Shown here piece after piece: positions 22,897 through 44,357 of a DNA stretch of 64,000 bases. The notes below the pieces were generated by a model that was not told the origin of the DNA, ran no database searches, and worked only from the letters and a program-made list of their open reading frames with translations. The first letter of the stretch is position 1, and each line of letters opens with the position of its first letter. The DNA is from Amycolatopsis regifaucium (lineage in GTDB: Bacteria > Actinomycetota > Actinomycetes > Mycobacteriales > Pseudonocardiaceae): assembly GCF_001613935.1 (NCBI RefSeq), contig NZ_LQCI01000052.1:271651-335650 (forward strand), in the 5' to 3' direction. The position numbers and the translations under genes were made by a program.

Positions 22897-23709
22897 TTAT
22901 CCCGCACGCAGTTCCAGCGTGCAGCATTTGACGCTGCCGCCCGCCTTGAGCAATTCGGACAGGTCCGCGCCGATCGGCTCGAAACCGCGTTCGCGCAGCT
23001 GCGCGGTAAGCCCGGTGGCCGCCGGCGGGAGCACGACGTGCTTGCCGTCGGACACGGCGTTGAGGCCGAACACGGCGGCGTCGCGTTCGGAGGCCAGGAT
23101 CGCGTCGGGGTACAGCTCCTTCAACACCATGAGGCTGTCCTCGGAGAACGCCTCCGGGTAGTACATGACCGTCTCGTCGTCGAGGACGGCGAGCGCGGTG
23201 TCGAGGTGGTAGTACCGCGGGTCGATCAGCGTCAGCCCGATCACCGGGCGGCCGAAGAACTCACGGGATTCGTTGTGCGCCTCCGGATTCGTGCGGAACC
23301 CGGTCCCGGCGAGGATCTTCTGCCCGGCGACGAGGTAGTCGCCCTCCCCCTCGTTGACCCACTGCGCCTGCCGCACGTAGCGGTATCCGTTGGCGCGGAA
23401 CCAGTCCAGGTACGCCGCGGACTCGCCACAGCGCTGCGTGTGCTGGAATCGCGCGACGAGCACCTGCCCGTCGACCACGGTGGCGCCGTTGGCCGCGAAC
23501 ACCATGTCGGGCAGCCCGGGCAGCGGGTCGAGCAGGTCGACGCGATGACCCAGGTCGACGTACAGATCGTGCAGCCACTCCCACTGAGCGATGGCCAGTT
23601 CGGTGTACGTGGGCTTCTTCGGGTCCATCCAGGGGTTGATCGAGTACTCGACGTCGAAGTACGTCGGTCTGACCATCAGGTAGTGCCTTGGGGTGGCTGT
23701 ACGTGACAC
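22897..23709 (-). CDS. Dimethylarginine dimethylaminohydrolase (DDAH)-like amidinohydrolase
   Basis: A 270-residue member of the guanidino-group modifying superfamily. MVFAANGATVV, GEGDYL, YYHLDTAL and the C-terminal GGSVKCCTLEL (catalytic Cys near 262) are in the family order. These enzymes attack the guanidinium carbon of arginine derivatives, releasing citrulline and an amine, or transfer the amidino group. GTG 23709 is chosen because GGAGG lies five bases upstream. In operon B it may hydrolyse a hydroxyarginine-type intermediate. A housekeeping dimethylargininase is the alternative. Confidence 0.85.
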   Translation of the reverse strand: MSRTATPRHYLMVRPTYFDVEYSINPWMDPKKPTYTELAIAQWEWLHDLYVDLGHRVDLLDPLPGLPDMVFAANGATVVDGQVLVARFQHTQRCGESAAYLDWFRANGYRYVRQAQWVNEGEGDYLVAGQKILAGTGFRTNPEAHNESREFFGRPVIGLTLIDPRYYHLDTALAVLDDETVMYYPEAFSEDSLMVLKELYPDAILASERDAAVFGLNAVSDGKHVVLPPAATGLTAQLRERGFEPIGADLSELLKAGGSVKCCTLELRAG

Positions 23710-23789
23710 GCTGTCCTCCACGCGGTTTTGGGCGTCTTCCACCGCCGCGCCCTGGGTGAGGGCGCGGGTTCGTCGAACGGGATTCGGTG

Positions 23790-25043
23790 CTACTTCTGGG
23801 TTTCGCTCAGCTTGACCTCGATCTTCCCGGCCAGGTCGTTCGCGTTGCGCATGGCTTCGTCGAAGGAAGAGCCGAGCGCGCCGATACCACCGAAGATGTT
23901 GTTGCCGAGCGGCGGTCGCTTGATCAGATCACCCGGCTTCGCGAAGATCTTGAGGTAGTACAGGGATGCCGACTCGCTCACCGCCGGCGGGACCTCGATC
24001 GAGGAGATCACACCCCCAGGGCAGATCAGGCACATCGCGGCGGTGTGCACGCCGGTCGGGTGGTAGTGCTGGACATCCGGCCGCACGCCTCGGGAGACGT
24101 CCATGAGTCCCTTGATGGGGTCGTAGCCCGCCGAAAGCCGCGCCATGTGGTCGAGTCCCCCGCCGCCGGGACGGACGGCGATCTCCAGCAAATACGGTCT
24201 GCCCTGGTGGAACCGGACCTCTGCGTGCAACGCGCCGCGCGTGAGCCCCTGCGCCCGCACCCCGGCGGTCACCACGGCGTGCACCTCGGCCACCTGTTCG
24301 GGGGTCAGCGACGTCGGAGCGTGGTGCACGTCGTCGTCGAAGGTCTCCCCCTCCGACGTGACTCTGTCCACAATGGACCCGAGGTAGACCTCGTCGTCCC
24401 ACGCGAGCGCTTCGATGAGATGCTCGTGACCGTCCAAGAAGGACTCGACGAGCAGGCCGTGCGGCCCGAGGTCCAGCCCTTCGGCCTCCATGTTGTACCA
24501 GCTCATGTTGTCGATTCCGGCCCGCGCCTGCGCATAGCGCTCCCGCATCTTTTCCTCGTCGTCGACACGGAAGACGAAGTTGCTGGCCGCGCCGAGCGTC
24601 GGCTTCAGGATCACCGGGTAACCGAAGTCCTCGGCCGCGCGCAGGGCCTCGTCGACGTCCTCGACGAACCGGAAGTCCGGATGCGCGGCGCCACCCTTCT
24701 CGTGTGCCTGCCGCATGATCAGCTTGTTCCGGCTCGTGCGCGCCGCGTCGACGCCGATCCCGGGCAGCCCGAGCGCTTCGGCGACGGCGGCGACCAGGAC
24801 CACGCCGGACTCGGAGAAGGTGAGCACCCCGTCGAAGGACTCCTCGGCGTGCCACGCCTTGGCGTGCCGGATCAGGTCGTCGAGGTGGTTGCTGCCGGCG
24901 ATCCGGTAGCGCTCCCGTGGCCAGAGGTCTTCCGTGCCGATCCCGTTGAGCACGTACAGCACCCCGCCGAAGTCCTCGATCTGCTGGTACCGGGGCAGGT
25001 AGTAGTAGGAGTTCTGACTGGCTTCCAGCGCGAGCAGTTTCAC
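23790..25043 (-). CDS. ATP-grasp ligase (third of the cluster)
   Basis: A 417-residue ATP-grasp protein. The middle part has GYPVILKPTLGAASNFVF (ATP-binding) and GLLVESFLDG, and later PYLLEIAVRPGGGG with the metal-binding residues. Such enzymes activate a carboxylate as acyl phosphate and join it to an amine. The GTG start overlaps the stop of the FAD oxidase gene (GTGA). It is one of three ATP-grasp ligases in the cluster and is presumed to form an amide bond. Confidence 0.85.
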   Translation of the reverse strand: MKLLALEASQNSYYYLPRYQQIEDFGGVLYVLNGIGTEDLWPRERYRIAGSNHLDDLIRHAKAWHAEESFDGVLTFSESGVVLVAAVAEALGLPGIGVDAARTSRNKLIMRQAHEKGGAAHPDFRFVEDVDEALRAAEDFGYPVILKPTLGAASNFVFRVDDEEKMRERYAQARAGIDNMSWYNMEAEGLDLGPHGLLVESFLDGHEHLIEALAWDDEVYLGSIVDRVTSEGETFDDDVHHAPTSLTPEQVAEVHAVVTAGVRAQGLTRGALHAEVRFHQGRPYLLEIAVRPGGGGLDHMARLSAGYDPIKGLMDVSRGVRPDVQHYHPTGVHTAAMCLICPGGVISSIEVPPAVSESASLYYLKIFAKPGDLIKRPPLGNNIFGGIGALGSSFDEAMRNANDLAGKIEVKLSETQK

Positions 25044-26197
25044 GACACACCTCGTAGGGCAGGGCGGGATGGGTGGACGCCGGACGCGCGCACGAGCGGC
25101 CGGTCGAGCGGTTCGAGTCCGGTCGGGGCCGGTTCCGCGCCGGTCAGGCGCGCGGCGAGCGACCGGGCGATCAGCGGGGCGAACTTGAAGGACGAGCCGC
25201 CGCACGCCGCGTAGGACAGGACCCGGTCGCCGAGGACGGCGAGCATCGGGCCGAGGGTGGAACGCCGGGCGAGGTAGTGGCAGTCCCGGGTGTCGATCAG
25301 CCAGTCCCGGCGGAAACCCGGGATCAGCGCGGCGAACGTGTCGATCAGGTGCTCACGCCACCACGACGGCGCGGCGCCACCGCCGACCTCGTCGACGATC
25401 CGGCAGGCGCTCGCGGCGCTGAGCTTCAACGGCGTCCCGGCGACCGGCGGGACCAGCCACGCGCCGCCGGGAGTGCCGAGCGAGGTGATCGCCGGGGTCG
25501 CCGCCCACGCGGCGGCCTCGGCGGGCGGCACATCGCAGTAGAGCATCGTCTGCCGGTGCAGTACGAGTTCTCTGGAGAGCTCGGGGGCCAGCAGGTCACG
25601 CGACCACGGACCGGCCGCGAGCAGGACGGCGTCACCGCGGATGACCTCACCGTCGGCCAGTCGTACCTCGGCCCGGTCGGCTTCGACACCGACCACCTTG
25701 CGATGCGGGTGAAGTTCGGCGTGCGCGTGCCGGCGCAGCCAGCCCGCGCAGGCCGCCAGGACCCGGTCGGCGAGCAGGACTCCGGCATGGGACTCGAAAA
25801 CCGCCCCCGTACCGGGGTGGAACCCGGCGTGTGGGAACGCGGCGGTGAGTTCGTCCGCACCGTACACTTCGGCCTTCGAACCGGCCGCGGTCAGCAGTTC
25901 CCGCGCGGCCGTCGCCTTGTCCGCGTCGAGCGCGGTGAGCGCGCCGACCTGCTCGTAGAACGCCGTGGTCAGCAGCTGTTCGAGCTCGATCCACGCGTGA
26001 TGCGCGCCGACGGCGGCCGTCGTCGTGGCGAGGTCGCCGGGATGCAGCGCACGCAGCACGCGGTGGCGGTCGAACGAAGTGGCGCCGGAGAACGGGATGT
26101 CGGCCTGGTCGGCGACGATCACCTCGTGCCCGGCCGACACGCACTCGACGGCGGTCAGCAGCGCGATGACGCCACCGCCCGCGAGCACGACTCGCAT
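25040..26197 (-). CDS. FAD-dependent amino acid oxidase (DAO family)
   Basis: A 385-residue FAD oxidoreductase with the N-terminal dinucleotide fold VVLAGGGVIALLTAVE and the C-terminal YAACGGSSFKFAPLIA typical of DAO/sarcosine-oxidase-like enzymes. In the s56-p1 hydrazine pathway a DAO-type enzyme (Spb39) cleaves the lysine part of the N-N-linked lysine adduct. With the N-hydroxylase, cupin and MetRS-like genes at 39703-43042 this protein is the natural candidate for that step, although it lies in the other operon. The ATG is followed directly by the Rossmann motif, supporting the start. Confidence 0.82.
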   Translation of the reverse strand: MRVVLAGGGVIALLTAVECVSAGHEVIVADQADIPFSGATSFDRHRVLRALHPGDLATTTAAVGAHHAWIELEQLLTTAFYEQVGALTALDADKATAARELLTAAGSKAEVYGADELTAAFPHAGFHPGTGAVFESHAGVLLADRVLAACAGWLRRHAHAELHPHRKVVGVEADRAEVRLADGEVIRGDAVLLAAGPWSRDLLAPELSRELVLHRQTMLYCDVPPAEAAAWAATPAITSLGTPGGAWLVPPVAGTPLKLSAASACRIVDEVGGGAAPSWWREHLIDTFAALIPGFRRDWLIDTRDCHYLARRSTLGPMLAVLGDRVLSYAACGGSSFKFAPLIARSLAARLTGAEPAPTGLEPLDRPLVRASGVHPSRPALRGVS

Positions 26198-31041: not shown

Positions 31042-31371
31042 CTACTCGGCGACCTCTTCGATCGCCGAGATCCCCCGTGACCCGTGAGTGCCGTACCGCT
31101 CCCACACCTCGTTGAGCCGGATCCGCCCGTCCGGCAGGAACTCCGGGGTGTTCGTGCTGTGTCCCGAAATCACCTGCCCGCCGGTCAGCACCATGGTGTA
31201 GGCCAGCTCGATCGTCCCGTCCTCGCCGCACTTCCCGGTCAGCGACCCGAGCCGCACGCCGCCGCCGGACAGTTCGGCCCACACCAGGTCGTCCTTCTGC
31301 CGGTACCGGGTCACCGGCGCGTCCGGGTCGGCGCTGACCTTCCGGAACCGTTTCCCGTCGTAGTTGATCAT
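31042..31371 (-). CDS. Small conserved protein, often labelled N-acetylglutamate synthase-like
   Basis: A 109-residue protein starting MINYDGKRFRKV with later VWAELSGGGVRLGSLTG and LPDGRIRLNEVWER. I recognise this as a small beta-rich family that databases sometimes call N-acetylglutamate synthase; it has no acetyltransferase motif, so the label is doubtful. The ATG overlaps the FMN protein's stop, so it is the last gene of operon A. Confidence 0.65.
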   Translation of the reverse strand: MINYDGKRFRKVSADPDAPVTRYRQKDDLVWAELSGGGVRLGSLTGKCGEDGTIELAYTMVLTGGQVISGHSTNTPEFLPDGRIRLNEVWERYGTHGSRGISAIEEVAE

Positions 31372-32621
31372 GCGTCCTGCTCCTTCGGTCCGGGAGCACC
31401 CGGAAACCAGAGATCGTCCGAGGTGAGATCGGTGAGGTCGTACTTCCCGAGGGCGCTGGCGAGCAGCCGCAGTTCGAGTTCGAGGCACCGCACCAGCCGC
31501 ACGAGCCCTTCGGTCGCGTCCTCGTCGACGGCGAGCAGCGCCGCCCGGCCGAGGCCGACCGCGGAAGCGCCCATCGCCAGGCATTTCAGCGCACGGGCCC
31601 CTTCCCAGATCCGGCCGGACACCAGCAGCGACGCGTCGTGCTTGCCGACCCGGCGCAGGCATTCCACCAGCGGCAGGCCCACCTGGTCGAGGAACACCGA
31701 CGGCGCCCAGCCGGTGCCGCCCTCGGCACCGTCCACGGTGACCGCGTCCGCTCCCGCCGCCCACGCGACCTGTGCCGCCTCACCGACGTCCCGGCCTGGA
31801 TGCAGTTTCACCCAGGCCCGCGCCCGCGGGTAGTTGTTGCGCATCAGGTGGATCTGCTGGCGCAGGATCTCCCCGGTGAACGTGCCGGGACTGCTCGAGC
31901 GCAGCACCATCGCGGTGTCCGTGCCGAACGCTTCGTCCACTGTGTACTGTTCGGCGACCTCGCCCGCGGCCGTGCGCGAGAGCACGGTCATCCCGCCGAG
32001 GCCCGGTTTGGCCCCCTGGCCCACCTTCAGTTCGAACGCCAGACGCCCGCTCTCCAGCAGTTTCGTCGCGGACGGGTCGCTGTAGACGAGATTCCAGACC
32101 TCCGCGTCGGCGTCCTCGGTGCTCTGCTGCACCACCACACCACCCAGCCCGTCCGGCACCGCGCCGGCGTACGCGCGGATCCGCCCGAGCAGCCCGTCTT
32201 CCGCGCTTTCGCCCATCCGCCCGTAGCCGTGCATGGGCACGACGTTCTCGCCGATCACCATCGGCATCCCGAGTCTGCCCGCCTGCTCGCTCGCGGCGAT
32301 CCCGAGTCCGCTGCCCGCCACCTGCGTTGACCCGAACGCGCACAGGAAGACCGGCGACGGCGCCGTGAAGCCGCCGAGGACCGTCGTCAGCCCGACATCG
32401 CCGTAGACCGGTTCCCGTGCGAGGTCGAACATCTTCTCCAGGCGCCGCGGGACGAACACCGGCGGCACGATCCGCGCGCGGTCGAGTTCGTCGGTGCCCG
32501 AATCGACGTCCGCGCCGAACAACGTGCGCCCGTATCCCCCGACATCGGGGAAGATCGCCGCGCTGCCTTCCCGCGCCCGCGCGCGGATCGCGTCTTCCGG
32601 AAGCTGCCGTGCGGTGATCAC
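31368..32621 (-). CDS. Glutamate synthase-like FMN-binding protein
   Basis: A 417-residue protein with the TIM-barrel core of glutamate synthase: FELKVGQGAKPGLGGM, VTVDGAEGGTGWAPSVF and LLVSGRIWEGARALKCLAMGA. These bind FMN and are conserved in GltB and archaeal glutamate synthase; the glutamine amidotransferase domain is missing. It may reductively aminate an imino intermediate. The GTG start overlaps the AsnRS-like stop, and the gene overlaps the small gene downstream. Confidence 0.8.
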   Translation of the reverse strand: MITARQLPEDAIRARAREGSAAIFPDVGGYGRTLFGADVDSGTDELDRARIVPPVFVPRRLEKMFDLAREPVYGDVGLTTVLGGFTAPSPVFLCAFGSTQVAGSGLGIAASEQAGRLGMPMVIGENVVPMHGYGRMGESAEDGLLGRIRAYAGAVPDGLGGVVVQQSTEDADAEVWNLVYSDPSATKLLESGRLAFELKVGQGAKPGLGGMTVLSRTAAGEVAEQYTVDEAFGTDTAMVLRSSSPGTFTGEILRQQIHLMRNNYPRARAWVKLHPGRDVGEAAQVAWAAGADAVTVDGAEGGTGWAPSVFLDQVGLPLVECLRRVGKHDASLLVSGRIWEGARALKCLAMGASAVGLGRAALLAVDEDATEGLVRLVRCLELELRLLASALGKYDLTDLTSDDLWFPGAPGPKEQDA

Positions 32622-33613
32622 GGCGCCGCGATCCCCGGCAGCTTCGGGTACGCGTTGGCCTGCCAGACCGCGTCCAGCCCGGCGAGGTACCGCGTCACCC
32701 GCTCCAGTCCCATGCCGAAGCCGGCGCTCGGGGGGAGTCCCTCGCGCGCGAGGTCGAGGTACCAGCGGTACTTCGCCGGGTTCTCCCCTGTCTCCCGCAT
32801 CCGCTCGATGAGCCGCCGGTACTCGTGCGTGCGCTCACCGCCACTGCACAGTTCGCCGTACCCGTCCGCGGCGATGAGGTCGAAGTTCCGCAGCACGCCC
32901 GGTTCGGTGCTCGACTCGCCGTCGGTGAACCCGCGGGACCCCTTGGGGTAGTCGACGATGAAGAACGGCCGGTTCGTCTGCTCGGAGATGATCCGCTCGC
33001 CCTGCCAGTCGATCTCCGCGTCGGCGCTCTGCCCGTGCAGCAGCCCCCGCAGCCGCGACACCGCCTCGCGGTGCGTCATCCGCTCGAAGTCCTCCTCCAG
33101 CAGCGGCGTGAACGCGTCCTGGTCCCGGCCGAGCGCGGCGAGGTCCATTTTGGACTCCCGCAGTGTGTAGGCGACCACGTGCCGGAGCAGTCCCTGCGCG
33201 AGATCGAGGACGTCCTCCCGGCTCGCCCGCGCGACCTCGACGTCGATCTGGGTGAACTCGACCAGATGCCGTCCGGTGGTCGAGGTCTCCAGCGGCTCCA
33301 GCCGCACGTTCGGAGCGACGTAGAAGATCTTGTCGAAGGCCAGCAGCGACGCCTGTTTGTACAGGATGACGCTGGTCATCATCTTGTACTTGTGCCCGTA
33401 GTAGTCGACGTCGACCTGTTTGGCGCCGCGGCAACCCGGGTCGGTCACTGGCCCGATCAACGGCGGCTGCAGTTCCACGAAGCCGTTCATGCCGAGATAC
33501 TCGCGGGTGCCCGCGGTGATGCTGTTCTGGATGCGCAACGCCGCCTGTGTCACCGGCGACGTGAGATGCTCGCGGGTACCCGGCGGCAATGCCGCGTCCG
33601 CTGTTCCGGTCAT
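32618..33613 (-). CDS. Asparaginyl-tRNA synthetase-like / archaeal-type asparagine synthetase-like ligase
   Basis: A 331-residue class II aminoacyl-tRNA synthetase catalytic core. Motif 2 is in the TTGRHLVEFTQIDVEVA region and motif 3 is GFGMGLERVTRYLAGLD. There is no N-terminal anticodon-binding domain. Archaeal asparagine synthetase related to AsnRS has the same truncation. In this operon it probably adenylates an aspartate-like carboxylate, perhaps methylaspartate from the adjacent glutamate mutase, and joins it to ammonia or an amine. It is not a housekeeping tRNA synthetase by context or length. Confidence 0.8.
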   Translation of the reverse strand: MTGTADAALPPGTREHLTSPVTQAALRIQNSITAGTREYLGMNGFVELQPPLIGPVTDPGCRGAKQVDVDYYGHKYKMMTSVILYKQASLLAFDKIFYVAPNVRLEPLETSTTGRHLVEFTQIDVEVARASREDVLDLAQGLLRHVVAYTLRESKMDLAALGRDQDAFTPLLEEDFERMTHREAVSRLRGLLHGQSADAEIDWQGERIISEQTNRPFFIVDYPKGSRGFTDGESSTEPGVLRNFDLIAADGYGELCSGGERTHEYRRLIERMRETGENPAKYRWYLDLAREGLPPSAGFGMGLERVTRYLAGLDAVWQANAYPKLPGIAAP

Positions 33614-34917
33614 GTCCTACTCCCCTGAATTAGTTGAACGGTGTCGATTCCGGGCATCCCGTAGCGCTCGTCGAACGACCGCTCGACGTACCGGAGCGCG
33701 TCCAGCAGGTCGCTGGAGGTCATTCGTCGCTCCGACGGCAGGTCGACGAGATCGCCCAGTGGCATCGCGCCGATCCGCTGCCATTCCAGGCGCCCGCCCG
33801 CGTCCAGCCGTCCACGCGCCCGGCCGGCGTTGTCCGGGTGCAGGCAGAACGGGACGTCCAGCTGTCCCCGCGCGAACGCGGTGACCAGCGCCCGTCCGAG
33901 GTCGCCGTCGAGCGAAAGGACGTTGTCCACCAGCGCTTTCGCCTGCGCGTGGATCCCGGTGTCACCGAGATGACCGATCCGGGAGACGCCCCGCGCGGCG
34001 TCGGCGGCGTGTTCGAGGGCGGTCACGTTCTCCGCCACGGTCGGCAGCCGGTGCGCTTCGGCGGTGGTCTTCACGATCAGCCTGCTCGCGCCGGTGCGGG
34101 CGGCCAGCCGCGCGGACTCCGCGATCAGCGCCAGCGCGCCGCCGGGAGTCCTCGGGTAGACGCCCATGTAGCCGTAGACCACCACGTGCGTCCGCGCGTG
34201 CGGTACGTATTCCCTGATCAGGGCGTGCAGCGCGGCGATCGCCTCCTCGTCCTGCCCGGCGTGGGTCTGCTGCGCGTAGCTGAAGGAAAGGCAGCGCACG
34301 CCGTGCCGCCAGAAGAACATCCCCTCCAGCACACTCAGCGCGACCAGCAGCGCGGGCGGGCACAGCTGCCCCATCATGCAGCCGCCGAAGGTCTCCAGAT
34401 GCGGCTCCAGTTCCGGGCTCCTGGCCTCGGCCAGGGTTTCGCAACAGCGCCGCCAGTTGTCGACGGCCGCCGAGAGCGGCATCCGGCTGTAGGGCAGGCA
34501 GTACGACACCGGCCCGCCCTCGGTCGCGTGCAGCCCGAAGTCGAGCAGTGTCCGCACGATCCGGCGGGGATCCGCCGAACCGTGCCGGATCTGCACCGGG
34601 AAATCCTCGGACAGCACCCCGTCGAGCAACGCCGCCGTGGTGGCGGGCTCGTGGTCGGCGAGCGGGTAGCCGTTGAGGTCGGCACCGGCGGCCAGCGCCG
34701 CCCGTGCCGCCTCGCTGTCGCCGACCCGGGTGTAGCTGTCGATCGTGATGGTGCCGACGGTCGCGGCCCGCGCCGCCCTGGTCGCCAGCAGTCCCCTGGT
34801 CATCCGTCCCGGATCCGCGAAACCCATCCGGGGCTGGACGACCAGGTCTCCCCTGGCGTGGTGGCGTTCGACCACCGCGCCGAACGAAAGTCCCCGTCGC
34901 GGGGCGAGCACGCTCAT
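33610..34917 (-). CDS. glmE: Glutamate mutase epsilon subunit (methylaspartate mutase E)
   Basis: A 435-residue TIM-barrel protein. GTITIDSYTRVGD near the N-terminus, ETFGGCMMGQLCPPALLVA and the SFSYAQQTHAGQDEEA region match the catalytic subunit of coenzyme B12-dependent glutamate mutase. The complex interconverts L-glutamate and (2S,3S)-3-methylaspartate. The ATG overlaps the stop of the B12-binding subunit gene. In a biosynthetic cluster it most likely supplies 3-methylaspartate, as in friulimicin-type pathways. Confidence 0.88.
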   Translation of the reverse strand: MSVLAPRRGLSFGAVVERHHARGDLVVQPRMGFADPGRMTRGLLATRAARAATVGTITIDSYTRVGDSEAARAALAAGADLNGYPLADHEPATTAALLDGVLSEDFPVQIRHGSADPRRIVRTLLDFGLHATEGGPVSYCLPYSRMPLSAAVDNWRRCCETLAEARSPELEPHLETFGGCMMGQLCPPALLVALSVLEGMFFWRHGVRCLSFSYAQQTHAGQDEEAIAALHALIREYVPHARTHVVVYGYMGVYPRTPGGALALIAESARLAARTGASRLIVKTTAEAHRLPTVAENVTALEHAADAARGVSRIGHLGDTGIHAQAKALVDNVLSLDGDLGRALVTAFARGQLDVPFCLHPDNAGRARGRLDAGGRLEWQRIGAMPLGDLVDLPSERRMTSSDLLDALRYVERSFDERYGMPGIDTVQLIQGSRT

Positions 34918-35378
34918 CCGGCACCCAGCGGGACACCGGGGGCGCGCACGGACAGCGTCCGCAGGAACGTCCGGAACGGGCTCAGCCCGCCGGAGTCCTC
35001 GAACACCGCGTCGAAGCCTGCCTCCAGCAGCCGGGCGGCGTTGCTCCCGCCGGTGACGTCGAGCTTCCCGCCGATCACGACCGGCGTCGTGACCAGCGCC
35101 GGCTCCGCGCGGAAGGCGTCCATCAGCCGGACGCCGTCTTGGCAGCCGTGTCCGTTCAGACTGCTGATCACCACCAGGTCCGGCCGCCGGGTGACGCATT
35201 CGCGCACGATCGTCGCGTCCGGGACGCAGGCGCCGAGATTGGTCACCCGGCACCCCAGTTCCTCCAGCAGCAGCTCCAAATACACCAGGTTCCAGGTGTG
35301 CGCGTCGGACGAGAGCCCGGTGACGATCACGTCGAGACCGGCGTCCGGAAGGGCGGGCTGGACGGTTTCGATGCTCAT
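34914..35378 (-). CDS. glmS: Glutamate mutase cobalamin-binding subunit (methylaspartate mutase S)
   Basis: A 154-residue flavodoxin-fold B12-binding protein. The DxHxxG-type motif appears as DAHTWN, with the axial His present and Asn where Gly is usual; VVISSLNGHGCQDG is the second B12-contact loop. The gene is between an ATP-grasp gene and glmE with four-base overlaps on both sides, so the subunits are made together. Confidence 0.85.
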   Translation of the reverse strand: MSIETVQPALPDAGLDVIVTGLSSDAHTWNLVYLELLLEELGCRVTNLGACVPDATIVRECVTRRPDLVVISSLNGHGCQDGVRLMDAFRAEPALVTTPVVIGGKLDVTGGSNAARLLEAGFDAVFEDSGGLSPFRTFLRTLSVRAPGVPLGAG

Positions 35379-36655
35379 GGCGCGGCGTTCTCCCTCTCCT
35401 CGCCGTCCGGCCGCACGTCGATCTCGATCAGCGCGACCGCTTCTTCGGCCAGGCGCGACGCCTCCGCCGGACTGGCCGCGGTCACCATCAGATCGCCGAC
35501 GCGGTCCCACGAACTGCGCAGCCCGTCGAACCGGTCACCGGCCGAAACGCCGACGTCGCACAGGAACACGCCCTCGGCCTGTGCCGCCTTCTCGACACCG
35601 CGCACGTCCTCGATGAAGCCGGGCTCGATGGACACGAACCGCACCGCGGCACCGCGTTCGGCCTTGCGCGGCAACGCGTCCACAACCGGTTCACCCTTCA
35701 TCACCGAGAAGTAGGCGCGATTCAGCTCCACCGGGTAGGCGCGCTGGATCAGCTCGATGATGCCGTCGCCCGCGAACCGGCCGGCGCATTCGACCAGATA
35801 CGGCACCCCGTTCGAGACGATCCATTCACAGTGGACGATGCCGGTGCCGAAGCCGGTCGCCTCGGTGAGCCGCCGGGTTTCCTCGGTCAGCAGCGCGGTC
35901 AGTTCGTCCGGGATGTCGGCGGGGACGATGTGCGCGAGTTCCACCGGGCGCGACCCGGGGAACAGCCGTTTGCCGGTGACGTTGGCGAACAACGGTTCGC
36001 CGTCCCGCAGCAGCATTTCGACGCTGTACTCGTCGCCGTCGACGAAGCTCTCGGCCAGCATCTTCAGTTCCATCGCGCGGTCCGGGACGAAGACGCCCTC
36101 GTCCTGCACGGCACAGTCGGCCCAAGCCTGCTCGACCTCGGCCGGGTCGGTGATCACCTGGGTGCCCACCGACGCCTGCCGGTTCGCGGGCTTCAGCACG
36201 ATCTTTCCCGGATGCCGCGCCATGAACTCGCGGACCTGCGCCGGGGTTCCGACCTGGGCCGAAGGCGGGTTCGCGACCCCCGCCGCCCGGCTGACCAGGC
36301 GCAGCATCCCCTTGTCCCGCAGGATCTGCGCCGCGCCGAAGCCCGCGCCCGGCAGGCCGTACCGTTCCGCGAGCCGGGCCGCGAACGGGGTCGCGTACTC
36401 GGTCAGCGGGACCACCGCGGCCGGATCGAGGTCGTCGTGGACGTGGTAGAACTCGTCCGCCTTGCCGGGGAGGTGGAACTCCCACTCGATCAGGTCCCGC
36501 ACCAGGGCCGAACCCGCCACCGTCTCCCGCGCGCCGCGTTTGCGGACCACGTCGGGCTCCTCGACGAAGATGACCGTTCCGTCGGGCTGGAAGTCCTTGA
36601 TGGACGAACCCAGCGCGGCGGCCACGAAGCCGACCAGCAGCACCGGGCGCGTCAT
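35375..36655 (-). CDS. ATP-grasp ligase (second of the cluster)
   Basis: A 426-residue ATP-grasp protein: HPGKIVLKPANRQASVGT (ATP-binding), LAESFVDGDEYSVEML, and HCEWIVSNGVPYLVECAGRF with the metal-binding residues. It is of the carboxylate-amine ligase type. Overlaps by four bases with both the substrate-binding-protein gene and glmS. Its neighbours suggest it may couple methylaspartate to another amino acid. Confidence 0.86.
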   Translation of the reverse strand: MTRPVLLVGFVAAALGSSIKDFQPDGTVIFVEEPDVVRKRGARETVAGSALVRDLIEWEFHLPGKADEFYHVHDDLDPAAVVPLTEYATPFAARLAERYGLPGAGFGAAQILRDKGMLRLVSRAAGVANPPSAQVGTPAQVREFMARHPGKIVLKPANRQASVGTQVITDPAEVEQAWADCAVQDEGVFVPDRAMELKMLAESFVDGDEYSVEMLLRDGEPLFANVTGKRLFPGSRPVELAHIVPADIPDELTALLTEETRRLTEATGFGTGIVHCEWIVSNGVPYLVECAGRFAGDGIIELIQRAYPVELNRAYFSVMKGEPVVDALPRKAERGAAVRFVSIEPGFIEDVRGVEKAAQAEGVFLCDVGVSAGDRFDGLRSSWDRVGDLMVTAASPAEASRLAEEAVALIEIDVRPDGEERENAAP

Positions 36656-38406
36656 GACTCGTCCTCCTCCACGTAGTACCAGTTCTCGGGGTTGATCAGG
36701 CCGTACGGGTTGAGCGGGGTGAACCCGCGCAGGTTCCCGGCGACTTCGAACAGGCGCCGGGGGAACGTCGGCATGAAGATCACCGGGGCCTGGTCGGCGA
36801 TGTACTCCTGGTACTCGTACAGCGCTTCGAGGTCGTCGGTGGTGACCGTCTTCGCGATCAGCTCGTCGGCCCTGGCGTCGCGGTAGTTGCTGAAGTTGCA
36901 GGCGGCCCCGCTCTGGAAGAGGTTCTCGCCGGTCGGGTAGTTGTAGACCCAGCCTCCACCCCAGCAGGACAGCTCCCACAGCCGCTTCTCGCCCGGCCCG
37001 TCCTCCGCCACCAGGACCGAACCCATCACCTCTTCCAGGCGGATCTCGATCCCGGCCTTGGCCGCGTCGTCGCGGAACTGCGTCATGAGCCGGGCCAGCG
37101 AAGGCCGCCCTTCCCAGTAACGCAAGGAGAAACTCAGCTCGGTTCCGGCAGGGATGCCCTCGCCCGCCGCGCCGGGCCCGGTTCCGGGCCGCACGCACAC
37201 GGCGGGGGAAGCCTCGGTGTCCCAGCCGTTTTCGGCCAGCAGCGTACGTGCCCGTTCCAGGTCGAACGGCCAGGACCCGCCGCGTTCGGTGATCTTCGGT
37301 GAGACCAGGTCGCTCTTGGGCAGGACCGGGATCGGCCCGGTCTGGCTCCAGCCGTAACCCTGATAGACCTCGCGGGCGCCGTACTCCTGGTCGAAACAGC
37401 TCTGGAGTGCCTGCCGCACGTACGGTTGCCGGAGCAGCTGGCCGGCGACGGTGGGGTTGCCGAAGTTCACCGCCATGAAGTTGATGTTGAACAGGATCTG
37501 CGGTTCCAGCTGGAATCCGGCGCCGAGCGGGTTCGGCCCGCCCCGCGTCGGGTCGCCGTCCGGTTGGACGCCCTTACCCGGCGGCAGGAAACCGACCTGG
37601 ACGTCGCCCGACCGCAGCAGTTCGTACTGCTGCTCGTCCGACGTCGTCGAGACCTGGCGCAACTCGTCCAGGTGCGGCGGGTTGGGGCCGCTGTAGTGCT
37701 CGTTCGGGACGAAGGTGATGACCCCTTCTTTCGTGTAGCTCTTCAGCCGCCACGGTCCGTTGACGACACTCCACACCGGACTGTCCGCCCACCGGGTGCG
37801 GTGGGTGTTGTCCTCGGCGACGGGATCGCCGTTCTCCGCCATCAGGAACTCGTACACCGCTTCCGCTTGGCCGATGTCGTGGGTCGCGTCGGCGGGTCCG
37901 GCCGCGGTGCGGTCCCACGCCTTCGGCATCGGCGTGATCATGGTGAGCTGGTTCAGCAGCACCCAGTTCTTCGAGTACGCCTTGTCGAAGGTGAAGCTCA
38001 CCTTGTCGTCGACGACCTTCTCGAAGGACACCAGGTTGTCCGGGAAGTAGCCTTCGCTGTAGGCGCCGAACTTCGGCCCCTTCGTCTTCAGCATGTTCAT
38101 CCAGAAGACGACGTTGTCCGCGCAGACCGTCTCGCCGTTGGACCATTTCCACGGTTTGATCCGGACCGTGCAGGTGCGGCCGGTCTCGTCCCACACCGGC
38201 TCTTCGCCCACGCTGAGGTCGTAGTCGATCGCGGGTTCGCCGTCGCGGCCGAGCCAGTAGAGGGGCCGGTACATCAGCATCTGGAACTCGTAGAGGTTCC
38301 GGATGCCGAAACGCTCTCCGGGGGTGAACGGGAAGATCACCGCGGGCGGGAACCCGGGAAGGCAGGCCCAGGTCGCCACGCCGCCCTTGATCGGCTTGTC
38401 CGTCAT
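36652..38406 (-). CDS. SBP_bac_5-type peptide-binding protein lacking an export signal
   Basis: A 584-residue family 5 extracellular solute-binding protein (PWKWSNGETVCADNVVFWMN, GPWRLKSYTKEG, ANYNP-like VYNYPTGENLF). It starts MTDKPIKGGVATWA: the GG-hydrophobic strand that normally follows the lipobox Cys begins at residue 8, so there is no signal peptide or lipobox. It should be cytoplasmic. No ABC permease or ATPase gene is near. It may bind, shield or carry a pathway intermediate, or have become an enzyme; that is inference. Confidence 0.85.
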   Translation of the reverse strand: MTDKPIKGGVATWACLPGFPPAVIFPFTPGERFGIRNLYEFQMLMYRPLYWLGRDGEPAIDYDLSVGEEPVWDETGRTCTVRIKPWKWSNGETVCADNVVFWMNMLKTKGPKFGAYSEGYFPDNLVSFEKVVDDKVSFTFDKAYSKNWVLLNQLTMITPMPKAWDRTAAGPADATHDIGQAEAVYEFLMAENGDPVAEDNTHRTRWADSPVWSVVNGPWRLKSYTKEGVITFVPNEHYSGPNPPHLDELRQVSTTSDEQQYELLRSGDVQVGFLPPGKGVQPDGDPTRGGPNPLGAGFQLEPQILFNINFMAVNFGNPTVAGQLLRQPYVRQALQSCFDQEYGAREVYQGYGWSQTGPIPVLPKSDLVSPKITERGGSWPFDLERARTLLAENGWDTEASPAVCVRPGTGPGAAGEGIPAGTELSFSLRYWEGRPSLARLMTQFRDDAAKAGIEIRLEEVMGSVLVAEDGPGEKRLWELSCWGGGWVYNYPTGENLFQSGAACNFSNYRDARADELIAKTVTTDDLEALYEYQEYIADQAPVIFMPTFPRRLFEVAGNLRGFTPLNPYGLINPENWYYVEEDES

Positions 38407-38436
38407 GGTTTTCGCTTCCTCCGAATTCGGCCGCGG

Positions 38437-39696
38437 TCAGGCGGCGGTCGCCTCGAGAACTTCGGCGGGCTGCTTGTTGTCCTGCGCCGACAGCGGTTTC
38501 GCCAGACTGAAGTAGGTGCCGATCACGATCGCGCCCTGCAGGATCGCCAGCCCCCAGAAGGCGTGGGGCACGGTGGTCGCGTCCGCCAATGTCGACAAGC
38601 CGACCGTCGCGCCGACGCCGAGCCCGAGGCCGACGGCCTGGGTGCCGCCGAAGATCCGGCCGACCCGCTCCTCCGGGCTCGCCCGCATCAGCAGGGTGCG
38701 GGCGGCGATGCGGCCCTGCGCGAAACAGAACCCGGCGAACGGGATCGCCACCATCAACGCGATGTAGTGCAACGGCTGGATCGCCAGGCAGATCAGGTTC
38801 CCGAGCGTGCCGAGCACGGCGAGGTGGATGCCCTTGAACCGTTTGCTGACCTTGCCGTACAGGGCGGCGCCGGCGATGAACCCGGCCCCGGCCAGCGCGT
38901 CGACCACGCCGATCATCCAGGCGCCCTGGTTGAACGTCTGCAGGATCAGCGTCGTCAGGATGACGTTGGCGACCATCAGGCCGATGTTCCCGTTGGCGTA
39001 CAACAGCGCGAGCCGCTTGATCGGCTGGCGCACCGGTACCTCGACCGGCGCCGACGGGTCCACGGTCACCGTCTCGACGATGACCGGCGCCTTGACCGGC
39101 TTCCGGCCGATCGCGTAGACGAGGACGGCCGAGAGCATGAAGGTCAGCGAGTTGAAGATGAACAGCGGTGTGGCGCCGAACCAGATCACCAGGAAACCCG
39201 CCAGCGACGAGGCGAGCAGCATGCCGGCGTTGCTCGCCATCTCGAAGTGGGAGTTGAACTTCCCGAGCCGTTCGTCGGCGACCCGTTCCTTGATCAAGCC
39301 GTTGCTGGCGGGCATGAACAGCGCCGCGGTGCAGGCGAGCATGAAGTTCGCTATGTAGGAGCCCAGGTTCGCCGGGCCGCCGATCCACAGCCACACCGGC
39401 AGCGCGAACGCGGTCATCGCGCTGACCAGGTCCGCCGCCACGCAGAGCATCCGCCGGTCGACCCGGTCGACCAGTTTGCCGAACAGCAGCGCGAGCGCGA
39501 CCTGCGGGACCGACACCGCGATGAACAGCCAGCCGACGGCCAGTGTGGTCTGCTCGGCGTGGAAGACCAGGATCGCGGCCGCGGTGATCTGGAAGGCGTT
39601 GCCCGCCGTGGTGATGAAGCCGGCCGGGACGAGCAGCCGTTCGGCGATCCGGGACCGCCGGACCGCGTCGGCGGAGAGGGTGCTGTCGAGTGACAT
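38437..39696 (-). CDS. MFS transporter
   Basis: A 419-residue major facilitator with about 12 hydrophobic spans, an LVDRVDRR loop after span 2 (the MFS motif A position) and a soluble middle loop rich in Pro/Val. It lies 30 bases downstream of the SBP gene's upstream neighbour and within operon A. Probable exporter of the product and so a self-protection gene. Confidence 0.85.
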   Translation of the reverse strand: MSLDSTLSADAVRRSRIAERLLVPAGFITTAGNAFQITAAAILVFHAEQTTLAVGWLFIAVSVPQVALALLFGKLVDRVDRRMLCVAADLVSAMTAFALPVWLWIGGPANLGSYIANFMLACTAALFMPASNGLIKERVADERLGKFNSHFEMASNAGMLLASSLAGFLVIWFGATPLFIFNSLTFMLSAVLVYAIGRKPVKAPVIVETVTVDPSAPVEVPVRQPIKRLALLYANGNIGLMVANVILTTLILQTFNQGAWMIGVVDALAGAGFIAGAALYGKVSKRFKGIHLAVLGTLGNLICLAIQPLHYIALMVAIPFAGFCFAQGRIAARTLLMRASPEERVGRIFGGTQAVGLGLGVGATVGLSTLADATTVPHAFWGLAILQGAIVIGTYFSLAKPLSAQDNKQPAEVLEATAA

Positions 39697-39702: not shown

Positions 39703-41319
39703 TCAGACCTCGCTCGTCGGGGGGAATTCCAGTGGTGGCACGGCGAACGCCGTGGTGTGCGTGACGTCGTAGGCGTCCGCGGTGATCCGGAGGTCGAATC
39801 CGCCCGCGCTCGCGGCACGCGCGGAGAGGTCGATGAGGATCGGTGAGGCACAGCCGATCAGCGCGCGCAGTTCCAGGAAGAGGTCACCCAGCCTGCCGCG
39901 GAGCACCTCCTGGTCGAGGTTCCCCGCGAGGGTGCGTTCCGCGGCCGCCCGCAGCCGTTCGACGTGCTGCACCACCAGATCCGCCGCCCGGCTGAGGCTG
40001 AAGTCCTCGAGTTCGTAGTTCAGGACGAACCGGGACACCATCGCCGCCGCGCGTTCCGTGGCCTCGGTGGACACCGGAAGCCCGCCTTCGCCGCCGACCT
40101 CGGCGGTGAGCTTGGCCAGGGTCTCCGCGAGTTCGTTCCAGGGCGCGACGAGCCGTTCCCCGGCGATCTTCTCCAGCGCGGCGCGGCTGAAGTTGGTCCT
40201 GGCGAACTCGGGGGCGGTGAGGTTGAGATAGAACCGCGCGAGGTCGCGCGGCAGTTCGGCCGCCAGTTCACGGGCCCAGACCACATGTCCCTTGCTGGTG
40301 GAGAACTTCTCGTTCTCGAGTTCGTAGAACTCGTTGACCAGCAACGTGTCCGGCAGGACGTAGCGGCCGTCGTGGGCGATCAGCTCGGCGACGTGGACGA
40401 CGCCCCAGGTGAACAGCGGGTCGAACCCCATGAACACCACGACCCGCGCGTCGTTCTCCGCGAGCCACGCGTCGTCGTCGGCGACGACCGGCTTTCCGTT
40501 GCGTCGCAAGGCGTATTCGGTGCAGTACATCGACGCGGGCATGCCCTCGACCCAGGCGTTGAGCGTCTGCCCCGGCGTTTCCGCGAACGGCGCGGGCAGC
40601 CCCCAGCTCACCGGATAGGTGATGGCGAAGTCCGGCAACGGTCCGGCCAGCAGTTCGCGCATCAGCCCGAGCACGTGCGGCCGCCAGGCGGGACCGCGTT
40701 CCTCGTAGTAGGCGAGCAACTGTTCGCGGTACTCCGAGACGGGGAAGACCAGGATCTCCGTCTCGCGGTAGGTCACCTCGTCTGCCGGGTCGAGCACCGA
40801 ATACGGCTCGATGAGCGCGTCGAAGTCGATCGGGTGCCCGCATCCCTCGCAGAATCCGCCGCGGCTGTCGGCGAGACAGGTGGGGCAGCCACCGCCGACG
40901 AAACCTTCGACCAGGAATTCGCCCTCGCGCTCGCTGTAGGGCAGCCGCACCTTGCGCAGGCGAAGCTTTCCGTTGTCGTACAAGCGGTTGACGTAGTCGT
41001 GCACAAGGACCTTGTAGCCGTCGTCGGTCGGCGAGAAGCCGTCGACCTCGACGCCCATCGCCTTGAAGGTGCGCTGGATGTTCTCGGTCGACTGCTTCAC
41101 CAGCTCGGGCGGGGTCACCCCGACCCGGGCGGCGCTGGTGACGAGGTAGGTCTGGCTGTCGTCGGTGCACGAGGCGAACACGCCCTCGCGACCCGCCGCG
41201 CGCAGATACCGCCGGTGCACGTCGGCGCCGAGATACGGGCCGGCGATATGCCCGATGTGCAGGTCCCCGTTGGACGTCGGCGGGCCGCCGATGATCACGA
41301 CCGGTCTCGTGTCGGCCAT
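39703..41319 (-). CDS. Methionyl-tRNA synthetase-like protein, probable N-N bond (hydrazine) synthetase component
   Basis: A 538-residue class I synthetase homologue. GDLHIGHIAG carries the HIGH signature at residues 21-24, a zinc-knuckle CPTC...CEGC lies near 145-160, and KFSTSKG near 340 replaces KMSKS. Standing between a cupin and a lysine N-hydroxylase, it matches the MetRS domain of Spb40/PyrN-type hydrazine synthetases, which activate an amino acid and join it to N6-hydroxylysine, forming an N-N bond after rearrangement on the cupin metal. In characterised cases the two domains are fused; here they are adjacent genes. GTG 41325 is an alternative start overlapping the cupin stop. Confidence 0.85.
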   Translation of the reverse strand: MADTRPVVIIGGPPTSNGDLHIGHIAGPYLGADVHRRYLRAAGREGVFASCTDDSQTYLVTSAARVGVTPPELVKQSTENIQRTFKAMGVEVDGFSPTDDGYKVLVHDYVNRLYDNGKLRLRKVRLPYSEREGEFLVEGFVGGGCPTCLADSRGGFCEGCGHPIDFDALIEPYSVLDPADEVTYRETEILVFPVSEYREQLLAYYEERGPAWRPHVLGLMRELLAGPLPDFAITYPVSWGLPAPFAETPGQTLNAWVEGMPASMYCTEYALRRNGKPVVADDDAWLAENDARVVVFMGFDPLFTWGVVHVAELIAHDGRYVLPDTLLVNEFYELENEKFSTSKGHVVWARELAAELPRDLARFYLNLTAPEFARTNFSRAALEKIAGERLVAPWNELAETLAKLTAEVGGEGGLPVSTEATERAAAMVSRFVLNYELEDFSLSRAADLVVQHVERLRAAAERTLAGNLDQEVLRGRLGDLFLELRALIGCASPILIDLSARAASAGGFDLRITADAYDVTHTTAFAVPPLEFPPTSEV

Positions 41320-41321: not shown

Positions 41322-41705
41322 TCACACCCCCGCCCGCTCGGACGGCTGTGCCGCGTGCCGGGCGGCGAACTTCGCCGTCATGTCGGCGTCCCACCAGATC
41401 GCGTACATCTCGAAGTCCTCCGCACCGTCGTTGAGGATGCGGTGCTCGGTGCCGGGCGCGTGGAACTCGATGTCGCCCGGCCGGAACGCGCGGCGTTCGC
41501 CCCCGGTCTCGACGACCGCCTCGCCGCTGACGGCGATGAAGATCTCGTACTCGTGGTGAGAGTGCGCACCCGTCGCGCCGTGGGCGGGCACCGTGACCCA
41601 GGCACCTTCGAACGGCGCGTTCAGCGCCGCCCACGGCAGGAGCCGCTGTCCGTAGGCGCCGTTCTCGAAGACCATCTTTTCCCGCTCCAGCGGACGGATC
41701 TCCAT
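41322..41705 (-). CDS. Stand-alone cupin, probable partner of the MetRS-like protein
   Basis: A 127-residue single-domain cupin. GATGAHSHHEYEIFIAVSGE contains the metal-binding His residues and Glu, and PGDIEFHAPGTEHRI the last His. In the fused hydrazine synthetases a zinc cupin rearranges the O-acyl hydroxylamine ester into the N-N-linked product. The gene ends one base before the GTG/ATG of the MetRS-like gene and follows the N-hydroxylase, so a two-subunit hydrazine synthetase is likely. Confidence 0.83.
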   Translation of the reverse strand: MEIRPLEREKMVFENGAYGQRLLPWAALNAPFEGAWVTVPAHGATGAHSHHEYEIFIAVSGEAVVETGGERRAFRPGDIEFHAPGTEHRILNDGAEDFEMYAIWWDADMTAKFAARHAAQPSERAGV

Positions 41706-41728: not shown

Positions 41729-43042
41729 TCAGCGGGTGGCGACGATGGGCGCGGTGTCCGACGTCGGCTGCGGCGGCACCGACGGGGCCTCGCCGCGATG
41801 GGCGAGGATGTCCTGCAGGATGTCGTTGGCGCGCGGGGCGAGCACGCTCAGCAGCGAGTCCGCGATCCCGTGCGTCGCCTCGTTGACCCCCTGGAGGTAG
41901 ACGGCGGCGGTGGCGGGCTGGTCGATCTCCAGCCGGTAGTCGCGGGTCACCTTGATCTCCGAGAGACCGATCGATTTCGCGATCTCCTGGACCATCCTCG
42001 GCATCTCCGGCGAGAAGCCGGTGCCGAGCAGCACGAGATCCGTGCGCAGTTCCTGCGTCTCGCCGGTACGCCGGTCGGTCAGTTCCAGCACGACCTCGTC
42101 ACCCTCGTCACGGGCGTCGGTGATGTCGCTCATCGTGATCATCCGCAGCCGCGAACGCCCGGAAAGCCGGTCGAGGTACATCGAGCGGTAGAGCGCGTCC
42201 ATCGTGCCCGGCGCCAGCCCGGAGTAGTTCGTGTGGTGCATCTCGGCGAGCATCTGCTCGCGTGCCGCGGGCAGCGCGTCGAAGAACTTGTCGACCTGGG
42301 ACGGGAAGAACAGCTCGTTGTTGAACTTGCTGCTCTCGTAGTAGTTCAGGCCGATCGACCGCATCACCATCGTGGGCTTGCATTCGGGCAGGTCGTTCTG
42401 CACCGCGCCGAACAGTTCCGCCGCGCTCTGGCCGGCGCCGATCACCGCGACGCGGTAGGGCAGGTCCTTGCGCAGCTTGGCGATCCGCGGCAGGTACTGG
42501 GTGCTGTGGATGACGCGGTCCTGGTTCACCGTCCGGAGCTGGTCCGGGATCCGCGCGTCGCGGCCTGCCCCGACCACCAGGTACCGGCTGCGGATGACCT
42601 CGCCGTCGGCGATCCGGGTCTCCCAGCCGGTGAGCGTGCCGTCCGTCCACACGGGAGTGATCTCGCGGCATTCCCGGCCGCGCTGAAGATCGACCATCGA
42701 CAGCGAGTCGGCAGTCCACTTCAGATAGTCGGCCAGCTCGACCCGGTACGGGACGAAGCTGCCCATGTTCACGAACTCGTTGAGCCGGTTGGTGTCGTGC
42801 AGATAGTTGAGGAACGAGAACCGGCTGCGCGGATTGCGCAGGGTCACCAGGTCCTTGAGGAACGAGACCTGCGACAACGCCTCCGGCAGGAGCATGCCCC
42901 GCTGCCAGGAGACCTCCTCGTCGCGTTCGATCAGGACCGAATCGCGGGCCAGGCCGGGCGCGAGCTCCTCCAGTGCCACTGCGAGTGCCAGGTTGGACGG
43001 TCCTGCTCCGACTGCGAGAAGCTCGACATCACGGTTCGCCAT
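41729..43042 (-). CDS. Lysine/ornithine N-monooxygenase
   Basis: A 437-residue flavin-dependent N-hydroxylase. AVGAGPSNLALAVALEE (FAD), LTTLRNPRSRFSFLNYL-like region TLRNPRSRFSFLNYLH (substrate side), VIGAGQSAAELF (NADPH) and LLGTGFSPEMP are in the order of the SidA/IucD family. It hydroxylates the side-chain amine of lysine or ornithine. ATG 43042 is chosen because GGAG lies seven bases upstream; earlier GTG 43108 would overlap the ATP-grasp gene. The cupin/MetRS neighbours favour N6-hydroxylysine for hydrazine formation over a siderophore. Confidence 0.88.
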   Translation of the reverse strand: MANRDVELLAVGAGPSNLALAVALEELAPGLARDSVLIERDEEVSWQRGMLLPEALSQVSFLKDLVTLRNPRSRFSFLNYLHDTNRLNEFVNMGSFVPYRVELADYLKWTADSLSMVDLQRGRECREITPVWTDGTLTGWETRIADGEVIRSRYLVVGAGRDARIPDQLRTVNQDRVIHSTQYLPRIAKLRKDLPYRVAVIGAGQSAAELFGAVQNDLPECKPTMVMRSIGLNYYESSKFNNELFFPSQVDKFFDALPAAREQMLAEMHHTNYSGLAPGTMDALYRSMYLDRLSGRSRLRMITMSDITDARDEGDEVVLELTDRRTGETQELRTDLVLLGTGFSPEMPRMVQEIAKSIGLSEIKVTRDYRLEIDQPATAAVYLQGVNEATHGIADSLLSVLAPRANDILQDILAHRGEAPSVPPQPTSDTAPIVATR

Positions 43043-43100
43043 TGTTTGCTCCGCCATCGTTGAGAGTGCTTGGAAGGTGTTCTGCGGTGCGGTCACGCGG

Positions 43101-44357
43101 TCAGCCACCGGTGGCCACGGAGGGCAGCAGGGGGTACGCGGTCAGCCGGACCTGGGCCATGGCTTTGTCCAGCACCACCTCGCAATCGTCGGGATCTCGA
43201 CCGGCACAGATCACATACGCGTGGCGCGAAATGAACTCCGCCGGCGGCAGCCGCATCCGCGCGCCCGGTTCGACGAGCCCGCCGGAGGCGAGAATCCCGT
43301 TTCCCAGCAAGGGTTCCGGCACCGAAACCGATTCGACGACGCAGTCCTGCTTGGGGTAGCCGAACCGCACGCCGACCCACCGGTCCTCGGCCTCGTGCGG
43401 GATATGGGGCCGCATGCCGAGCGCGACGTCGACCGCGGCGGCGCCCGGGTCGATCCCGGTCGCGAACCGGGCCAGCAACGGGATCAGGTCCCCGCCGAGC
43501 CTGCCGTTGATCTCCACGATCACCGGCCCGCGTTCGGTGAGCTTGAGTTCGGTGTGGGTGACGCCGTACCGGAAATCGATCGCGCCGTGCGCTCGGGCCA
43601 GCGTCGAACGGAGTACGGGGTCGGCGAGCAGTTCGTCGGAGGAGCTGACCAGGTGGCCGAGTTCCTCGAAGTACGGATGCATGCCGACCGTCTTGTGCGC
43701 CAGGAACATCGGCGTGTACTCGCCGTCGACGACGGCGCCGTCCACGCTGATCTCCGGGCCGGTCAGATACTCCTCGACCAGCGCCCCGCCCTGGTAGGCG
43801 GGAGAGCCACCGAAGCTGGCCTCCTCCGCGGTGCGGAACGCCTTCCGCACCGCCTCGCCGTCTTCCGCGAGGCTGACGCCGATGCTGGCCCCTCCCCCGC
43901 GCGGCTTGACGACGACCGGATAGCCGATCCGCTCAGCCACGCGGACCGCCTGCTCTTCGTCGTGCACGAAACCGAAGTCCGGCTGCGCGACCCCGGCCGC
44001 GGTGAGCGTCCGGCGGCTGAGCCATTTGTCGCGGCAGCCCTCGATCGCGGAGATCCCCGCGCCCGGCACGCCGAGTTCGTCCGCGACGTGCGCCGCGGTC
44101 ACGATCAACGCCTCGTCCCACGAAACCACGCCGAATACCGGCGTGGTCGCGTTCAGCGCGCGGGCCGCGGCCAGTACGGCGTCACGGTCCTGCAGGTCCA
44201 GCACCGTGGCGCCGGTGATGTAGCGGTCCTGCCAGGTCGGTTCGTCCCCGTTGAACAGCCACAAGGGATGCCGGTGACCGGCCGACGCCAACAGGTACTC
44301 CCGGTACGGCCGCATCCCGCAGCCGATGACCAGGACAACACCCTCCGCTGAGCTCAT
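43101..44357 (-). CDS. ATP-grasp ligase (first of the cluster)
   Basis: A 418-residue ATP-grasp protein: GYPVVVKPRGGGASIGVSLA (ATP site), ALVEEYLTGPEISVDG and PVIVEINGRLGGDLIPLL (metal site). It resembles L-amino-acid ligases that form dipeptides through an acyl phosphate. First gene of operon A; the ATG follows GGGGAGAGGGA. The shared cluster motif ends 56 bases upstream. Confidence 0.86.
   Translation of the reverse strand: MSSAEGVVLVIGCGMRPYREYLLASAGHRHPLWLFNGDEPTWQDRYITGATVLDLQDRDAVLAAARALNATTPVFGVVSWDEALIVTAAHVADELGVPGAGISAIEGCRDKWLSRRTLTAAGVAQPDFGFVHDEEQAVRVAERIGYPVVVKPRGGGASIGVSLAEDGEAVRKAFRTAEEASFGGSPAYQGGALVEEYLTGPEISVDGAVVDGEYTPMFLAHKTVGMHPYFEELGHLVSSSDELLADPVLRSTLARAHGAIDFRYGVTHTELKLTERGPVIVEINGRLGGDLIPLLARFATGIDPGAAAVDVALGMRPHIPHEAEDRWVGVRFGYPKQDCVVESVSVPEPLLGNGILASGGLVEPGARMRLPPAEFISRHAYVICAGRDPDDCEVVLDKAMAQVRLTAYPLLPSVATGG

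Follow-up and report, generated by a model that had tools for sequence, protein, structure and literature searches.

A gene on the minus strand of the 64-kb stretch of DNA analysed here (the window) encodes a family 5 solute-binding protein (SBP) that carries no export signal and belongs to a single clade of signal-less proteins tied to hydrazine gene clusters of actinobacteria, whose predicted products are peptide-like and hold a nitrogen-nitrogen bond. Proteins of this type ordinarily work outside the cell, delivering peptides to an importer. The protein most likely stays in the cytoplasm, where its probable role is to bind a peptide-like molecule made by an ATP-grasp ligase, and perhaps to pass it on. 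Both the fold and the family are known, and what appears to be new is a signal-less, transporter-free clade linked to a pathway. When an SBP is encoded in a biosynthetic cluster (e.g. that of clavulanic acid), it is usually taken for a part of a transporter; with this clade, the idea that a binding protein can become a component of the pathway itself can be put to the test. The gene and its ribosome-binding site are:

36652..38406, minus strand, signal-less family 5 SBP gene, 584 aa (PF00496, fold model and no upstream signal)
38418..38422, minus strand, GGAGG ribosome-binding site of the SBP gene, 11 nt before the ATG (from the sequence)

The ORF matches the SBP_bac_5 profile (PF00496) at 137 bits against a cut-off of 32.4 (E 1e-39), and this is the sole Pfam match in its 584 residues, which make up a full-length family 5 protein. 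Its N-terminus, MTDKPIKGGVATWACLPGF..., starts at strand beta-1, and the original prediction, according to which the protein begins at the strand following the usual lipid-modified Cys, is confirmed as to ORF, coordinates and beta-1 start. In the AlphaFold model residues 10-14 form beta-1 of the folded domain, to which 'TWAC' belongs, and in aligned exported relatives the lipid Cys is found shortly ahead of the strand matching it. 'TWAC' itself was ruled out as a lipobox, having a Trp at -2 and no hydrophobic region. A missed upstream start was ruled out as well: the stop codon of the MFS gene (38437-38439) shares the SBP frame 10 codons ahead of the ATG, and those 10 codons are hydrophilic and without alternative start, so that a signal peptide cannot be encoded and the in-frame upstream start that the original prediction had itself raised is excluded. 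As a control, the genome's 13 SBP_bac_5 matches were compared: each of the other 12 begins with a signal sequence, which includes a lipobox in 11 and is of Sec type in one. Nor is the gene decaying, since its dN/dS is ~0.10-0.20 within Amycolatopsis and it is intact in many genera; the SBP of the nearest named relative, A. orientalis, is 96% identical.

A homologue search of 392 genomes of the family, 395 of the class and the GTDB contig collection yielded 77 distinct homologues. All those with at least 56% identity (46/46, or 47/47 including the window SBP) are without signal peptide or lipobox, and all those at 27-40% identity (31/31) are exported relatives with a signal. Start codons of the homologues are predictions: in L080, L088 and L095 the automatic start lies inside the frame, and the open frame ahead of it contains a lipobox motif, while for L078 a lipobox (IGAGC) missed by the motif is visible in the sequence. 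The height of a simple hydrophobicity peak within residues 1-45 is a poor guide to the two groups because a hydrophobic segment of the domain (PPAVIFPF) follows beta-1. In phylogenetic analysis the signal-less proteins form one clade among the exported proteins (support 100/100, stem of 0.96 changes per column), with which the gap in identity between the groups (40-56%) agrees. Chance loss of the signal in one genome is ruled out by this grouping of all 47; the clade has a single origin and, judging by the tree, the export signal was lost once, at its root. The clade spans at least four actinobacterial families (its sources being Pseudonocardiaceae, Micromonosporaceae, Streptomycetaceae, Thermomonosporaceae and an unclassified actinobacterial MAG). 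The original prediction had proposed to look for signal-less SBPs in other hydrazine or ATP-grasp clusters, and they were indeed found, as this one clade, every member with adequate flanks lying in a hydrazine cluster. The exported sister group (actinobacterial dipeptide/oligopeptide SBP lipoproteins, e.g. L055, L068 and L070) is of the same family, 40% identical over the full length and has the same beta-1 start, but differs from the clade in its signal peptide and lipobox, its intact Cys404/Cys414 pair and the lack of an insert. The residues that set the clade apart are encoded at:

38362..38364, minus strand, Cys15 codon, directly after beta-1 (Cys in 47/47 clade members, 0/31 exported relatives)
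37798..37821, minus strand, codons of a clade-specific 8-residue insert, residues 196-203 (a gap in 31/31 exported relatives)
37195..37197, minus strand, Cys404 codon (kept in 47/47; partner Cys414 gone in 47/47)
36964..36966, minus strand, Cys481 codon, at a strand end (Cys in 46/47 clade members, 0/31 exported relatives)

Within the insert, Glu198, Asn200 and Arg203 are near-invariant in the signal-less clade. Each of the 31 exported relatives has both Cys404 and Cys414, and 30 of them have an even total number of cysteines, as expected for disulfides; the co-occurrence and hairpin position of these pairs suggest that they are disulfide-bonded. Four of the 47 signal-less proteins have a Cys at position 413, through which a shifted pair might have been kept. 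A second pair (472/475) is present in 28/31 exported relatives and in 22/47 signal-less proteins, so that the loss of Cys pairs is not universal in the clade. The broken 404/414 pair and the new cysteines would be marks of a move to the cytoplasm, and it is from these comparisons (no signal in 47/47, Cys-pair partner lost, new invariant cysteines) that the expectation of a protein staying inside the cell draws its support. Loss of the classical Asp that binds the peptide amine was considered as a further mark of the clade and dropped, as exported relatives are also without it.

The fold appears intact and bilobal in the AlphaFold model (pLDDT 93.1, pTM 0.91), with peptide binders as its best matches. 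The 50 PDB matches listed for the model are all SBPs of this kind, with TM scores by target reaching 0.83, and the best by profile and fold, hence the closest solved structure among the matches listed, is AppA of Bacillus subtilis (1xoc). Unlike the signal-less SBP, to which it is ~20% identical, AppA is the oligopeptide-binding protein of an importer.

Blast with 28 permease references from the same genome detected no ABC permease in the window, and a scan for ABC-ATPase motifs no ABC ATPase. All 75 BPD_transp_1 matches of the genome lie outside the window, the nearest on the contig ~154 kb away. Blast of the loci with flanks against the genome's permeases likewise found none beside any signal-less clade member; the permease matches of L045 and L062 lie near the locus edges, at least 7-10 kb from the SBP and on the cluster's far side. 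The absence of a nearby ABC transporter, which had been read from the window, thus extends to the other clade members. Of the exported relatives, nine loci had flanks; eight of these include neighbouring ABC permeases, and hydrazine or ATP-grasp genes were found at none. The company of the signal-less gene in the window is of another kind:

43101..44354, minus strand, ATP-grasp ligase A (ORF opens at 44444, start provisional; Pfam ATP-grasp_4 1e-16)
41729..43108, minus strand, lysine/ornithine-type N-hydroxylase (Pfam Lys_Orn_oxgnase 3e-85)
41322..41705, minus strand, stand-alone cupin half of the hydrazine synthetase (Pfam Cupin_2 1e-12)
39703..41286, minus strand, MetRS-like half of the hydrazine synthetase, adjoining the cupin (Pfam tRNA-synt_1g 1e-65)
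38437..39696, minus strand, MFS transporter, probable exporter (Pfam MFS_1 3e-26)
35375..36655, minus strand, ATP-grasp ligase B (Pfam ATP-grasp_4 and LAL_C2)
34914..35378, minus strand, glutamate (methylaspartate) mutase S-like, B12-binding protein (Pfam B12-binding 5e-13)
33610..34899, minus strand, glutamate (methylaspartate) mutase E-like protein (ORF opens further upstream; Pfam Met_asp_mut_E 3e-79)
32618..33613, minus strand, asparaginyl-tRNA-synthetase-like / asparagine synthetase A-like enzyme (NCBIfam NF005052, 426 bits, above cut-off)
31368..32621, minus strand, glutamate-synthase-like FMN protein (Pfam Glu_synthase 7e-23)
25040..26197, minus strand, FAD amine oxidase, DAO (Pfam DAO 4e-22)
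23790..25049, minus strand, ATP-grasp ligase C, ~11.6 kb from the SBP gene (Pfam ATP-grasp_4 3e-18)
22897..23742, minus strand, dimethylargininase-like hydrolase, DDAH (NCBIfam NF045659, 452 bits, above cut-off)

The N-hydroxylase, cupin and MetRS-like genes together are the core of a hydrazine synthetase cluster. The ATG of ligase B overlaps the SBP stop codon (ATGA), so the two genes are probably translationally coupled. The region 31368-44354 combines the hydrazine core with both mutase subunits (S and E), the AsnRS-like enzyme, the GltB-like FMN protein and two ATP-grasp ligases, and this mutase-type cluster is kept in many Amycolatopsis, Kibdelosporangium and Dactylosporangium; no matching description of hydrazine clusters with a glutamate mutase was found in the open-access literature. 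Further along, 20446-27868 holds a carbamoyltransferase, the FAD oxidase, ligase C, the dimethylargininase-like gene, a cation/proton antiporter and a VioC/clavaminate-synthase-like oxygenase. As these genes are joined to hydrazine genes in other genomes (L039, L149), the cluster probably spans ~20-44 kb of the window.

The tie to hydrazine and ATP-grasp genes, foreseen by the original prediction, is borne out across genomes. Cupin and MetRS-like genes are present in every signal-less locus with adequate flanks, with an N-hydroxylase within reach in nearly all, and the MetRS-like gene is found in all 31 other Pseudonocardiaceae genomes with a signal-less copy. Conversely, a signal-less SBP was found in none of 20 other hydrazine loci examined (0/20). 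The gene most tightly linked with the SBP in other genomes is ligase C, present in 19/19 hydrazine loci with the SBP vs 2/20 without it (Fisher 3e-9, a value that ignores shared ancestry); the corresponding figures are 15/19 vs 3/20 for DDAH and 13/19 vs 1/20 for the antiporter. Ligase C, DDAH (where present) and the SBP follow in that order on one strand in 18 of the 19 loci, where at most one gene separates ligase C from the SBP downstream of it. The distance of both ligase C and DDAH from the SBP is greater in the window and in Kibdelosporangium, although they are still in the same region.

One of the two SBP-free loci with ligase C (L134) is cut by a contig edge. The other, L136 (G385:C1:1990000-2009900, in a complete genome), has ligases C and A and the antiporter, without DDAH and without the signal-less SBP, so that the SBP is not strictly required alongside ligase C; this locus is a case of natural loss or of a state before the gain. 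L135 (G220:C9:64000-83900) is a mutase-type hydrazine cluster in which both ligase C and the SBP are absent within 20 kb, and a second hydrazine cluster in the same genome has both. Two hydrazine clusters without the SBP (L143, L146) carry a DDAH-like gene 77-79% identical to that of the window, closer than in most SBP-bearing clusters, which suggests mixing of modules between clusters. With such close copies in two SBP-free clusters, and with the counts given above, DDAH is a weaker candidate for an obligatory partner than ligase C. The mutase genes were ruled out as a needed partner, being absent from many clusters that have the SBP. Between the cluster types, median identity is 61% for the SBP and 62% for ligase C, against 57% for the N-hydroxylase and 50% for both the MetRS-like protein and the cupin. 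As the SBP exceeds the parts of the hydrazine synthetase in this respect, its shared function seems to be constrained. With secretion abandoned at the clade root, the linkage points to a single ligation step.

A mechanism can be proposed on this basis. A peptide-binding lipoprotein would have been captured once by a hydrazine/ATP-grasp pathway; signal peptide, lipobox and partner ABC transporter would have disappeared, and the protein would now work in the cytoplasm. N-hydroxylase, cupin and MetRS-like protein would combine an N-hydroxylated diamino acid with a second amino acid into a hydrazine, and ATP-grasp ligases would then add amino acids to it. The SBP would close around the small peptide-like, hydrazine-bearing ligase product (most likely that of ligase C), sequester this reactive compound and present it to the next enzyme or to the exporter. 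We infer the cytoplasmic location, the ligand and the hand-over from the comparisons above.

The first of these steps follows the known chemistry of this enzyme family (PMC8664883, PMC11705231). The core of N-hydroxylase, cupin and MetRS-like protein is shared with the s56-p1, triacsin, azaserine, pyrazomycin and Rhodococcus jostii RHS1 pathways, for which the accounts consulted mention no SBP, and stand-alone cupin and MetRS genes such as those of the window are found in R. jostii (PMC8664883). For the last steps, the strongest precedent is OppA2 of Streptomyces clavuligerus, where the clavulanic acid cluster has an operon of gcaS (ATP-grasp), orf16 and oppA2 (PMC6382702). OppA2 is essential for clavulanic acid, its mutant secretes N-acetylglycyl-clavaminic acid, and the protein has been proposed to bind this compound in a multi-enzyme complex (PMC7830376). 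Like OppA2 (Orf15) and OppA1, the signal-less SBP is a family 5-type protein of the peptide-binding kind whose gene shares a biosynthetic cluster with that of an ATP-grasp ligase. The pathway of OppA2 leads to a beta-lactam, however, whereas that of the window is predicted to lead to a hydrazine; OppA proteins are usually discussed in terms of peptide transport, whereas the clade has no export signal; and OppA2 is absent from the best 60 PDB matches with profile A1 and the best 10 with profile A2, listings that lend no support to placing the SBP in the OppA2 group by sequence. By this analogy the SBP would be a soluble cytoplasmic carrier that binds and hands on a ligase-made hydrazine intermediate, a tentative reading to which we give a little less than an even chance.

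The main rival is that the SBP has been recruited as an enzyme, its fold catalysing a step common to all these clusters via Cys15, Cys481 and Glu198/Asn200/Arg203. Cys15 and Cys481 were gained and are practically invariant, these cysteines and the clade-only insert with its invariant charged residues could equally mark an active site, and the conservation of the protein is enzyme-like, equal to that of ligase C and above that of the hydrazine synthetase. Related folds have turned into enzymes elsewhere (porphobilinogen deaminase, MqnA/MqnD, Thi5), but we know of no family 5 SBP that is one. Neither a cofactor nor a catalytic motif of any recognised kind was found in the protein, moreover, and the putative position of the residues in the inter-lobe cleft is read from strand positions only, so we regard catalysis as possible and somewhat doubtful. 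Much the same holds for the wider proposal of a cytoplasmic enzyme or obligatory intermediate carrier for non-ribosomal, ATP-grasp-made hydrazine peptides, acting on the ligated intermediate via the new cysteines near the cleft and the insert, which we think rather unlikely.

Hydrazines are toxic, and the SBP could alternatively serve self-protection inside the cell by binding a finished product that leaks back or awaits export; it adjoins export-type genes (the MFS gene at 38437-39696 in the window, an antiporter of the Na/H-exchanger type in other clusters). Clusters with differing downstream genes (mutase type or not) should nevertheless make different products, and the N-terminal motif and the insert are invariant all the same; many hydrazine clusters have no such SBP, and stoichiometric immunity by a 64-kDa protein would be costly. 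We consider this reading improbable. The linkage with ligase C, and residues that stay invariant throughout the clade in both cluster types, speak for a part in the pathway, as binder, carrier or enzyme, rather than for pure self-protection. The original prediction, which named self-protection, a pathway enzyme or a scaffold as possible roles, is partly supported. A ligand-sensing regulator has a precedent in SgrR, a cytoplasmic protein that carries an SBP_bac_5 domain joined to one that binds DNA, but the 584 residues contain no DNA-binding or extra domain, the Pfam match being to the SBP domain alone, which makes this very improbable. Least probable of all is a protein still working outside the cytoplasm through non-classical export and a transporter encoded elsewhere, for which the 75 BPD_transp_1 matches could supply a permease, given that all 47 members lack a signal, that the conserved Cys-pair partner is lost and that no member has a permease beside it as exported relatives do.

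No description of a signal-less SBP clade in hydrazine/ATP-grasp clusters was found in the open-access literature. The gene can serve as a marker for hydrazine natural products made with ATP-grasp ligases, a family so far uncharacterised, and the clade may help explain why OppA1 and OppA2 are needed for clavulanic acid. Elsewhere in the window, a second carbamoyltransferase-like ORF (601-2223, 33% identical to part of 26300-27868) belongs to another gene group at the window start, and a single ORF at 16772-18289 joins a family 2 glycosyltransferase domain to a HAD-like hydrolase domain.
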